From an uncultured candidatus Porisulfidus sp. (GTDB taxonomy: Bacteria; Pseudomonadota; Gammaproteobacteria; Poriferisulfidales; Poriferisulfidaceae), in assembly GCA_958431155.1 (NCBI GenBank), contig OY288106.1, positions 1,447,888-1,511,887 on the forward strand: a stretch of DNA of 64,000 nucleotides, in the 5' to 3' direction. Shown in pieces: positions 53,831 to 58,151 of the stretch. How positions within the stretch are numbered: position 1 is the first letter of the stretch; the number at the start of each line of letters is the position of its first letter. Both the position numbers and the translations under genes were made by a program. The notes under the pieces were generated by a model, which worked only from the letters and a program-made list of their open reading frames with translations, searched no databases and had not been told where the DNA came from.

Positions 53831-53880
53831 ATCAGGGCCTGCCGTGTATCGCCCGAGCTCGGGGCGAAGAGAAAGAACTG

Positions 53881-53911
53881 TGAAAATTGGACATATAGTA
53901 TCCAATTTTCA
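53881..53911. promoter_or_regulatory. Perfect palindrome at the start of the AAA+ ATPase remnant
   Basis: TGAAAATTGGA (53881-53891) and its complement TCCAATTTTCA (53901-53911) flank a 9-base AT-rich loop, CATATAGTA. The right arm ends on the A of the first possible ATG. It looks like an operator that would block both transcription and translation start. Confidence 0.6.
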
Positions 53912-54977
53912 TGGTAAATGGGCGCCTGATGAGAGATCGGTCTTTCCACTTGAATACGCTGGGGAAACATCTCCGGGCCGACCCCGTGGTCGGCCTTCTG
54001 GGAGCCCGGCAGGTCGGCAAGACAACGCTGGCTCGCGAATTGGCGGGACGCCGACGCGGGGCGGTGCATTTTTTCGACCTTGAATCCTCCGCCGATCTGG
54101 CACGGTTGACGGCGGACCCTCTCCTGGCCCTGCCGCCCTTGCGCGGGTTGGTCGTGTTGGATGAAATACAACGCCTTCCTGAGGTGTTCCCGACGCTTCG
54201 GGTACTGGCTGACCGCCCCGGCACCCCGGCTCGTTTCCTGGTTCTCGGCAGCGCTTCCCCGGAGTTGTTGCGGCAGAGTTCCGAGAACTTGGCGGGGCGC
54301 ATTTCGTACTATTCGCTGCCGGGATTCACCCTGCCTGAAATCCCGGCGAGCGAGACGGACCGCCTCTGGCTCCGGGGCGGCTTTCCGTGTGCGTTCACGG
54401 CGCGCAGCCACGCGGGCAGTTTCCGCTGGAGAAACAACTTCATCCGAAGCTTCCTCGAAAGGGACTTGGGACAACTCGGCATCCCGTTCCCAAGTGGCAC
54501 CATGGACCGTTTCTGGGCCATGCTGGCCCACGGTACGGACAGTTGTGGAATGGTTCCGAACTGGGCCGCGCTTTCGGAGTATCGCACCATGCCGCTCGCC
54601 GCTATCTGGGGGCGCTGGAGTCGACCTTCATGGCGAGGTGCCTAAAACCTTGGCATGCCAACCTCCGAAAACGCCAAGTCAAGTCCCCGAAAGTCTACTT
54701 TCGAGATACCGACCTGCTGCACTGCTTTCTCGGAGTATCCACCCGCGAAGAACTGCAACGGCACCCCAAGGTCGGGGCTTCCTGGGAAGGATTCATCATC
54801 GAGAACCTGATCCAGGCCCTGGGTGCAGAGGAGCGGCAGTGTTATTTCTGGGCCACCCACACCGAAGCGGAGATCGATCTGGTGCAGCAGCAGGGGGGGC
54901 GTCTGCGTGGGTTTGAGATCAAGCGTACTGTCGCTCCCAAACTAACCCGTTCCATGCAGACGTCCGCAACCTTCTAG
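53911..54977 (+). pseudogene. AAA+ ATPase of the DUF4143 type, frameshifted and truncated
   Basis: The first 205 codons encode Walker A LLGARQVGKTTLARELAG, Walker B LRGLVVLDEIQRLP and the sensor segment RFLVLGSASPELL. Near 54530 the frame shifts: the expected AHYHGQLWNGSEL region is split, and the C-terminal DUF4143 domain (LGALESTFMARCLKPWHANL, KVYFRDTDLLHCFLG, WEGFIIENL, EIDLV) continues in another frame. It then stops early after FEIKRTVAPKLT. A start at 53911 or 53929 is possible. Family members are ATPases of unclear role, often on mobile islands. Confidence 0.85.
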
Positions 54978-55176
54978 CCGCATCATCAAAGCGGTTCATA
55001 ACGTGCCGTTCGGCAGTTTAACCATTTGATAAATAAAAAGTTATTTAGAAAATCGGTGTGCTCACAAGCTCTCTCGAAGAATCCGTAAGTCTCGCTTCGT
55101 CCGCCGTTTTTCGTGGGGCGCATTGTGTTATTTTGTAGAGCATATAGAATCGTCTAACGACTCAAGGAACGATCCG

Positions 55177-55819
55177 ATGCCCCGATTGTCGCGCAATGCC
55201 CTGTCCGCTGCCATGGTGCGCTCCGCCGCACCCGGCAACTACGTCGACGGTAACGGTCTGATGCTGCGCGTCCGGAAGAGCGGATCGCGCCAGTGGATCC
55301 AGCGCTTAACCGTCCACGGGTGCCGCGTCGACCTCGGCCTAGGTAGCGCCGACCTCGTGAAGCTCGTCGACGCGCGGCGAGTCGTGGCAGGTGGAGGTGC
55401 AGCGGGCGATCTGGGACCAGTTCGACCTAGAGGCCGCGGTGTGGGTGAAGCCGGAGGAGTCGATGAAGATCGCGAAATCGCATCGGGTGCCGCTATCCCG
55501 GCAAGTGCTGGAGTTGCTGGCCGAGGCGCGGAAAGGTAAGCGGGGCGCGCTGGTGTTTCCGGGCAAGCGTCCGGAGGCGATGATGGGCGACTCGGTGATG
55601 ACGCAGGTGCTGCGCACGGCGGGGATCGCGGCGTCGGGCCACGGGTTCCGGTCGAGCTTCAAGGACTGGACACGGTAGCACGACGTAGACGAGTTGCTCT
55701 CGGAGTTCGCACTGGCGCACGTGGAGGGCTCGGCGACGGTGGCGGCCTACGCGAGGGGCGACCTGCTGGAGAAGCGGCGGCTGGTCATGCAGCGGTGGGC
55801 GGACTACATCGCGGGGTAG
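55177..55819 (+). pseudogene. Tyrosine recombinase (integrase) remnant
   Basis: The N-terminal DUF4102-like part (MPRLSRNALSAAMVRSAAPG, YVDGNGLMLRV) runs to about 55380. The central core, including the first catalytic Arg, is missing, and the frame changes. The C-terminal catalytic half follows (WDQFDLEAAVWVKPEESMKI, KSHRVPLS, HGFRSSFKDW), then an in-frame TAG at 55676-55678, then ALAHVEG and AAYARGDLLEKRR with the His and nucleophile Tyr. Dead as it stands. It marks an old integration, plausibly into tRNA-Gly. Confidence 0.85.
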
Positions 55820-55919
55820 CGGGCTGCTCGGAGCAATGTCCATGAATGGGAAGACGTCCAGTTGCGATCCGACCACATCATTGCTAATTCTGTCATTCTG
55901 AGGAACGAGACATATCACG

Positions 55920-56870
55920 GTGCTTTTCAAATCTCCCTCCTATTCGGCAGCGCTGGTCGCATTGTTGGCTGAGCACGACCTTGGATTCATCGAACTCGTG
56001 CCGCAGAATTCGTTTGCTGCTGAACTCAAGGATGGAATCACTAGCGCATTCAGAGTTGGCGCGCGCGAGGGGCGTCGTTTCGACCAGCAGGATTGGATCA
56101 ACACCTTCAACCATTCGAGCCGATTGGTGCAGTTGAACTTTGTGGCGTTTGGATTGAATGAGCTGGGGCACGACCCGATGCTGGAAGGAGTTTGGCCACG
56201 AGTCAATAATCCAATGGTGCTGAACAATATCGAAGGAAAACTCGATCAAGCGCAACGATACGTCAAGCGCCGACATGGAGTGCTCGTCAGGATTCGCGAT
56301 TCTCGGCTTGAGCTAAAGGACTGGGGCTTAGCAGAGCAGTCTAGGGAAAGCAAGAAAAAACAAGCACAAGCGCCGAACTTGACATTTGTAGGAACGATAC
56401 CTGACTCAGACTTTTCTAAGCCCATCGAGTTCAAGTTCGGAGATGTCGTGATTGCCTATTACGAGAATCCTAGAACGCTTGGGGAGAAGGTCGGGATTCC
56501 ACCATTGTTCAAGTACCCTCAGTTCGCGGTAGTGATAGATCCAAGCGCAACGAACCCCCACCGCCTAGTTGTGCGCGTGGAGGCCAGTGGCATAGGCGTT
56601 CCTATGCTCTGCTCGCTGGATCCAGCTGGCAATTATAAAGTCCTTGGTGAGTGGTCCAACACTGACCGGAACAGCTTCGTCAGAAAGGTTGCAGGAATCG
56701 TCTCGCATTCGTTGTCATCCCGGAGTTCACACGGAGCGGATCAGAACGCTCAAAAGGCAGTCATCGAGTGTCCGTCCTGCCGCAGGTCCTTGCGGGTACC
56801 AAAGTTCAGGTCGGGAAGGATCAGATGTCCATTATGCCAACACTTGTTTGAGGCCAATACTTTGAGTTGA
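55920..56870 (+). CDS. Unknown protein with C-terminal zinc ribbon
   Basis: 316 residues from GTG 55920. The first 270 residues match nothing I know; they include VGAREGRRFDQQDWINTFNH and KFGDVVIAYYENPRTLGEKV. The C-terminus has two CxxC knuckles, CPSCRRSLRVP and CPLCQHLFE, a rubredoxin-like zinc ribbon of the kind that binds nucleic acid or partner proteins. Visibly lower GC than the flanking core genes. It lies between the integrase remnant and the cyclase-like gene, on the same strand. Its link to either is inferred from position. Confidence 0.6.
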   Translation: MLFKSPSYSAALVALLAEHDLGFIELVPQNSFAAELKDGITSAFRVGAREGRRFDQQDWINTFNHSSRLVQLNFVAFGLNELGHDPMLEGVWPRVNNPMVLNNIEGKLDQAQRYVKRRHGVLVRIRDSRLELKDWGLAEQSRESKKKQAQAPNLTFVGTIPDSDFSKPIEFKFGDVVIAYYENPRTLGEKVGIPPLFKYPQFAVVIDPSATNPHRLVVRVEASGIGVPMLCSLDPAGNYKVLGEWSNTDRNSFVRKVAGIVSHSLSSRSSHGADQNAQKAVIECPSCRRSLRVPKFRSGRIRCPLCQHLFEANTLS

Positions 56871-56987
56871 TCAACCCGTGGGCAGGCTCGGATGGCATGA
56901 GCTATTACCTTCACTCTTTGCTGTAAAGGTTCAAGTGTGCTCATCCTGGGCCGCTGGAAAGCGCGATTCCGTCGCAGGACGTTGTGA

Positions 56988-57761
56988 ATGACACACTCTA
57001 CGGACAGGTCGAAGCAGCATACGACTCTTATGCGGTGGTGCATCTTTGTCGACATTCTTGGATTTAGCCAACTTTGGGAGTCCGAGCAAATGAAAGCGTG
57101 CCATTCTCTTCGGGAACTGATCCGAGCGATTTACCGGATTGGTACCCGCGTGTATACCGATCAAGGGGAACGGCTCTTCGTGCATCACATGGGGGACGGC
57201 TTCGCTATCGTCAGTGACTTCGGAGAGGCTTCATTCAAACGGCCCCTCGGCATAGCGGTTGCCCTCATGAGACATGTGACATCTACTGGTATGTTCGCTG
57301 CCGCAGCGGTCGCGGAGGGCAGTTTTTCCGACATCACCGGATGCTACCCCAATGAAGTCACGGAGGACTGCGACGACGGCGGTGTGGTCTGTCTTGGTGA
57401 AGGATTGATGACCCTGCACAAGGTGATGGGCACCGCATTCATTCACGCCTACCGTTTGAATGGCGATACGCCGTCTGGACCATTTGTGGTCGTATCCGCG
57501 GAACACGAAGGTCGCATTCCACCCGAGTTCGAGTTTTGTTCAACTCGAGGCAAGAGAGAGAATGATCTGCTCTCGATAGACTGGATGAGGGCCGAAAGCC
57601 TCGCTGTTGATCAGATACAGGCTAAGGCGTCCTTAGAAGCGCCGAAGGTTGGAGAATTGATCCAGGCAATCAAGAGCTATTGTGCGAGATATCCTCACGT
57701 GCGCGGCAAGTGGTCAGGCAATTTGCGAGCCTTGCTATCCGTCGATCTGGAGAAAGATTGA
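56988..57761 (+). CDS. Class III nucleotide cyclase-like protein
   Basis: 257 residues. Three features recall the class III adenylate/guanylate cyclase fold. The first is CIFVDILGFSQLWE with metal-ligand-like Asp22. The second is FVHHMGDGFAIVSDF with Asp70 in the GDG turn. The third is the downstream AFIHAYRLNGDTPSGPFVVV, where a cyclase has its AARL helix and valine strand. No receiver, membrane or HAMP domain is attached. Catalysis is unproven, and it may instead be a nucleotide-binding sensor. It follows the zinc-ribbon gene by 117 bases, inside the integrase-marked pocket. Confidence 0.5.
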   Translation: MTHSTDRSKQHTTLMRWCIFVDILGFSQLWESEQMKACHSLRELIRAIYRIGTRVYTDQGERLFVHHMGDGFAIVSDFGEASFKRPLGIAVALMRHVTSTGMFAAAAVAEGSFSDITGCYPNEVTEDCDDGGVVCLGEGLMTLHKVMGTAFIHAYRLNGDTPSGPFVVVSAEHEGRIPPEFEFCSTRGKRENDLLSIDWMRAESLAVDQIQAKASLEAPKVGELIQAIKSYCARYPHVRGKWSGNLRALLSVDLEKD

Positions 57762-58077
57762 GCTGACGCGGCTTGCAGGATGCTTGAGGAGATCTAGTCG
57801 AAATCGGCCGAATACGTATCGGCGCAGTGTCCGTGCGAGGAGCCGTGGTGATACTGCTCGCGGGCAGCCTTACACCTTGTTTATTGCGTAAGTAAAAATA
57901 AGGGATTCCGTTATTATGACTTTAGGCCTAAATCAAAATAACAGCCGCCTGCCAAGTCAGTTTGTGAAGAGCAGCCCATGGCGATGGGTACGGACAAGTG
58001 GCAAGACCAAAATTTGGCAGGATTCAACGCAGAAAACAAAGCACCCCGGGGGTACAGCAAGTAGAATAGAAATTCAA
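57762..58077. other. Intergenic stretch before tRNA-Gly
   Basis: No supported gene in these 316 bases. It is AT-rich around 57880-57950 and contains the 12-base perfect palindrome TTTAGGCCTAAA (57921-57932). It presumably carries the tRNA promoter and the right edge of the accessory pocket. I found no convincing copy of the tRNA-Gly 3' end that would mark an attachment site. Confidence 0.4.
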
Positions 58078-58151
58078 GCGGGTGTAGTTCAATGGTAGAA
58101 CTTCAGCTTCCCAAGCTGATAACGAGGGTTCGATTCCCTTCACCCGCTCCA
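58078..58151 (+). tRNA. tRNA-Gly (anticodon CCC)
   Basis: 74 bases with an encoded CCA. Acceptor GCGGGTG pairs with CACCCGC; the five-pair anticodon stem TCAGC/GCTGA encloses loop TTCCCAA, anticodon CCC; the T arm has GGTTCGATTCC. It resembles the glyU gene of E. coli. It forms the right boundary of the accessory pocket that starts near 53.9 kb. Confidence 0.96.

Follow-up and report, generated by a model that had tools for sequence, protein, structure and literature searches.

To our knowledge, class III cyclases are known in phage defence from two-gene Pycsar systems only. In clades B to E, the pyrimidine cyclase of these systems, PycC, consists of a single class III domain without a sensor, the residues that select its pyrimidine base being Y/D/R in clade B, F/K/F in clade D, and F/R/Q in clade E (PMC11224242). 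The nucleotide cyclase-like proteins of the DUF2652 group are stand-alone and cytosolic and carry both metal-binding aspartates, the mycobacterial members having isoleucine in place of the asparagine of the class III Asn/Arg pair and keeping the arginine (Ramakrishnan et al. 2016, PMC4886424). In Rv1900c, a cyclase that has been characterised, histidine stands in place of the same asparagine (PMC4886424).

Here, a stretch of 64,000 nucleotides from an uncultured candidatus Porisulfidus (hereafter the window) was analysed around a gene for a stand-alone class III cyclase-homology-domain protein, termed Cyc. It is best read as a member of a single-gene, atypical class III cyclase-like family tied to defence islands; a literature search turned up no stand-alone class III family in such islands.

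Setting of the locus

Cyc is encoded by an ORF of 257 aa at positions 56988–57761 on the plus strand of the window. It follows an ORF of 316 aa with a GTG start (55920–56870, plus strand), the product of which is a zinc-ribbon orphan protein, termed Zn, and the two lie between a tyrosine-recombinase integrase remnant (55177–55819, plus strand) and tRNA-Gly (58078–58151). The first-pass annotation had described two ORFs on the same strand, a dead integrase, and lower-GC DNA between this remnant and the tRNA gene, and its description of the setting holds. Both ORFs are present; the arm domain and the catalytic part of the integrase match in different frames (Arm-DNA-bind_3, E=1.4e-8; Phage_integrase, E=2e-5), the latter being cut by an internal TAG at 55676–55678; and GC across Zn and Cyc is 0.51–0.55, against about 0.62–0.67 in the surrounding DNA. 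The GC3 of Cyc and Zn, at 0.59–0.60, falls below the 0.73–0.80 of the neighbouring genes measured, and both genes are thus probably of foreign origin. In order-1 Markov shuffles of the region, chance ORFs of at least 257 codons appeared in 18 of 2000 and ORFs of at least 316 codons in 2 of 2000.

The genes lie in a variable slot from plsY to tRNA-Gly (53831–58046), the content of which differs between siblings of the genus. In G002 the slot is empty, shrunk to about 85 bp, and in G001 it contains a Fic-like protein, while G004 carries Fic, an AAA_14/DUF4143 ATPase, and a SmaI-type restriction-modification pair. Homology between G004 and the window breaks across the integrase–Zn–Cyc stretch, positions 54958–57876 being swapped in G004 for unrelated cargo with Fic and the SmaI-type pair. 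The presence of this pair suggests that the interval from plsY to tRNA-Gly is a defence exchange spot. Integration at the 3′ end of tRNA-Gly was also considered and rejected, because the cargo sits 5′ of the tRNA gene.

Some further features of the slot were observed. The SmaI-type restriction enzyme of G004 and an N4/N6 methyltransferase are encoded at L024:2167-3953. The AAA_14/DUF4143 ATPase gene is frameshifted in the window (53911–54977), with an intact copy of 385 aa in the same slot of G004. A 31-nt imperfect palindrome, TTATTATGACTTTAGGCCTAAATCAAAATAA, at 57911–57941 stands where the exchanged cargo ends on the right, and palindromes resembling it occur in the same slot of G004 and G003; it could be a hairpin, an operator, or a recombination site.

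Relatives and spread of Cyc

A search of 369 genomes of the class returned a single convincing relative of Cyc, a broken copy of about 25–26% identity (L009). A second search covered 84,980 species genomes, using the broken ~26% copy as second query row, and recovered three intact relatives along with the same broken copy. The intact relatives come from an Alphaproteobacteria MAG (L006, 66–67% identical), a Rhodospirillaceae MAG (L008, 69%), and a Latescibacterota MAG (L007, 51%); together with the Cyc of the window and the broken L009, they make up the five-member family to which all counts refer. Weak profile matches at L003, L011, L012, L028, and L045 (14–18 bits) were judged to be chance. 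With relatives 51–69% identical and a dN/dS of about 0.25, indicating purifying selection, Cyc is a real gene.

Similarity at the DNA level to L006 and L008 is confined to the Cyc coding sequence and ends at the gene ends, and Cyc is the only gene common to any of the loci, the neighbours differing at every one. Cyc therefore moves as a single gene; it has been laterally acquired, and its transfer between phyla involves this gene alone. Carriage by a phage or plasmid was rejected, since no relatives of Cyc were found in phage records or plasmids, nor in viral contigs searched by peptide or DNA pattern. The family is small, rare, and absent from the descriptions in any library searched.

The zinc-ribbon neighbour

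The zinc ribbon assigned to Zn at first reading is plausible, with CPSC...CPLC at about residues 282–312, though it stays under all curated cut-offs (Zn_ribbon_4, E=0.009). Zn is absent from all four genomes carrying a Cyc relative and from five other genomes of the genus; its search in the class sample gave nothing above chance-level scores, no relatives were found in phages or viral contigs, and its sole plasmid match covers the ribbon alone, 38 aa within a restriction endonuclease. Since Zn is without relatives, its reality as a gene is argued for only by its length and composition. No library matched a TIR or a nucleotide-binding domain in Zn.

Cyc and Zn are separated by 117 bp on the same strand, no terminator was found between them, and they had been put forward as a candidate two-gene module, with the co-occurrence of the two proteins in other genomes proposed as a check. 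That check went against the module: the proteins are not co-conserved, Zn being missing from four of four genomes with a Cyc relative, and what the loci share is Cyc only. A conserved Cyc–Zn pair is therefore rejected, and Zn is most likely separate cargo in the same exchange slot.

Predicted fold and active site

Against the Pfam cyclase model Cyc is marginal (E=0.041), and sequence searches of solved structures gave chance matches only. An hhalign comparison of the Cyc family with 11 class III cyclases from other genomes, controlled by 100 column shuffles, scored 29.1, against a shuffle maximum of 23.7 and mean of 14.7; it paired FVDILGF with FADIVGF, MGDGF with MGDC, and VMGTAFIHAYRL with the VVGDxVNLAxRL helix. 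An AlphaFold2 model from four sequences was poor (pLDDT 38), its weak PDB matches being mostly cyclases or related ferredoxin-type folds. When two reading-frame pieces of the ~25%-identity relative were added as they stood, making six rows, the model reached a pTM of 0.68 and showed its elements in class III order, and all 29 of its Foldseek matches in the PDB at E<=1e-3 were class III cyclases. Residues 114–167 have a pLDDT below 50, so that it is chiefly the profile alignment that positions the last helix. From model and profile together, Cyc is predicted to have the class III cyclase homology-domain fold. The cyclase core claimed earlier is thus supported, the structure predicted for 56988–57761 containing it, and so is the claim that Cyc has no sensory or membrane domain.

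Both metal-binding aspartates are invariant in five of five members: D22 in FVDILGF (57051–57053, plus strand) aligns with class III FADIVGF, and D70 in MGDGF (57195–57197, plus strand) aligns with class III MGDC. The motif EGxxxDxxGCYPxE, residues 110–123 (57315–57356, plus strand), also consists of invariant residues and is family-specific rather than a known class III motif. In the helix that carries the Asn/Arg pair in class III enzymes, I152–R156 (57441–57455, plus strand), the transition-state Asn position is occupied by Ile or Val in all five members, the Arg position is R, S, R, G, and L in turn, leaving arginine in two of five, and position 153, three residues before the Arg position, is basic throughout (H, R, R, R, K). 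The base-selecting Lys position holds His in four members and Tyr in one. The metal-Asp motifs and AYRL helix reported at first are all there; the R of AYRL, however, proves to be variable within the family.

With Asn missing from all members and Arg from three of five, catalysis may be lost. Class III members that depart from the Asn/Arg rule exist, however (PMC4886424), so that the departure seen here lowers the claim of activity and not that of homology, and since the Asn is replaced in mycobacterial DUF2652 proteins and Rv1900c as well, catalytic activity of Cyc is possible.

Genomic context and a possible link to defence

At L008, Cyc lies about 150 bp after a frame-split ApeA-type gene in an island that also encodes QatABCD, a PF10137 (CAP12/Pycsar effector) TIR, a type I restriction subunit, and a HEPN/RES protein. 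At L006, it has a TIR-like protein on one side and, on the other, several DNA methyltransferases in a row and a type II restriction-like protein. L007, where Cyc is preceded by a regulator-like gene and by the frame of a DUF4258 protein, which overlaps it by 4 bases, is not a dense defence island, and the broken copy at L009 sits among housekeeping genes, followed by a short ORF that is TIR-like by eye and without library match. Two of the three intact relatives are thus found in dense anti-phage islands, three loci being too few for statistics, to which the restriction-modification exchange slot in the genus of the window can be added. The hint of a defence function in the first-pass annotation stands when taken for the Cyc family alone, given the L008 and L006 islands and the restriction-modification pair in the sibling slot, and Cyc may accordingly be credited with a putative immune role. 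As a separate observation, a protein divergent from Cyc at L006:2264-3904 (minus strand) carries an R-x4-H motif, RHAAMH, that recalls HEPN nucleases; it has no Pfam or PADLOC match.

Proposed function and rival explanations

The explanation preferred as a whole, though tentatively and at slightly under an even chance, is that Cyc is an acquired one-gene nucleotide enzyme of the class III fold with an atypical site and an auxiliary or self-sufficient anti-phage role. Cyc would form the head-to-tail homodimer usual for the class III fold, bind a nucleoside triphosphate via two metal ions, and convert it at an unusual active site, where the basic residue at 153, one helical turn earlier, may replace the Asn/Arg pair. 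It would then act against phage, as an auxiliary or by itself, either by producing a nucleotide signal that differing neighbours read or by nucleotide consumption. A more specific version, an anti-phage enzyme of one gene without a dedicated effector, its site rebuilt with residue 153 and GCYP replacing the Asn/Arg pair and its product possibly an unusual nucleotide signal or its effect a drain on the nucleotide pool, is rather unlikely. Counting against the preferred explanation are the number of intact relatives, only three, the contexts of L007 and L009, the lack of a conserved effector and of a PF00027 protein, and the dependence on a six-row model.

The main rival to the enzyme view keeps the fold but drops catalysis: a dead class III domain would bind a nucleotide or a partner protein and serve as an inert sensor or regulator of island proteins. 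The absence of Asn in five of five and of Arg in three of five members, the His or Tyr at the base-selecting Lys position, and the lack of a regular effector at the Cyc loci would all fit such a protein. The metal aspartates and the GD turn are nonetheless invariant even in the ~25%-identity copy, suggesting that metal–nucleotide chemistry has been kept, and an Asn is also wanting in Rv1900c, a characterised cyclase, and replaced by Ile in DUF2652 proteins (PMC4886424), which leaves the inert sensor somewhat unlikely. Rather unlikely is the view that Cyc is plain mobile cargo serving some function other than immunity, such as metabolic nucleotide signalling, in islands that merely collect mobile genes: two of three close relatives stand amid several defence genes, and the slot in the genus of the window holds restriction-modification genes in a sibling. 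Neighbours that differ at each locus and the positions of L007 and L009 outside dense defence islands nevertheless agree with it, and it keeps some likelihood because the known relatives are few.

Readings that invoke Pycsar fare far worse. That a cyclic nucleotide made by Cyc activates Zn as a new type of Pycsar effector is highly improbable, for all that the genes share strand, close spacing, and matching low GC and GC3 with no terminator found between them, as Zn is missing from every genome with a Cyc relative, has no relative in the class sample and no nucleotide-binding domain in any library, and lies outside the between-locus similarity. A divergent Pycsar cyclase with its receptor encoded elsewhere in the genome would have the same fold and metal sites, and TIR-type proteins do occur in the L008 and L006 islands, one of them with a CAP12/Pycsar effector TIR domain. 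This, too, has very little probability: the PADLOC PycC model (PDLC02370) matches neither the members of the Cyc family nor the genome of the window, yet among 185 genomes of the class it has matches in 107 at E<=1e-3, mostly through general class III cyclases, no PF00027 cNMP-binding protein was found in the genome of the window, and the residues of Cyc are unlike the base-selecting ones of characterised PycC clades. Because the model at this permissive E-value matches more than half of the class genomes and misses Cyc, the presence or absence of such systems is unreadable from it alone. By these comparisons Cyc is not Pycsar, there being no PycC match, no conserved effector, and different selecting residues; with Zn not co-conserved and no gene other than Cyc common to the loci, the Pycsar-type layout originally proposed is not established.

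Comparison with known systems

A separate one-gene family in defence islands, without the usual catalytic pair, would widen the immune roles of the class III fold, and a role of the Cyc family in immunity is easy to test. Like PycC, Cyc has a single class III domain without a sensor, two metal aspartates, and a defence context (PMC11224242). Unlike the PycC clades, it has F20, H66, M68, and A73 at the selecting sites, of which the first aromatic alone agrees. An aromatic residue at the first base-selecting position is general in class III. Unlike Pycsar systems, Cyc has no adjacent TIR or membrane effector (PycTIR/PycTM) beside it, and the TIR at L008, 3.8 kb from Cyc, belongs to another family, PDC-S35.

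With the DUF2652 proteins, Cyc shares its stand-alone form and both metal aspartates, and with the mycobacterial members the isoleucine in the Asn place, whereas the Arg, variable in the Cyc family, is kept in DUF2652, for which a defence context is not described (PMC4886424); the DUF2652 model of Pfam matches neither Cyc at E<=10 nor the family members at E<=1. The adenylyl cyclase domain of Rv1900c (PDB 1ybt, 1ybu) is among the closest solved folds to the Cyc model, with a TM-score by target of 0.58–0.62; the structurally aligned residues are about 15% identical. The Rv1900c match is, however, an isolated cyclase homology domain, whereas Cyc makes up a whole protein by itself and has C-terminal helices of its own and the GCYP motif.
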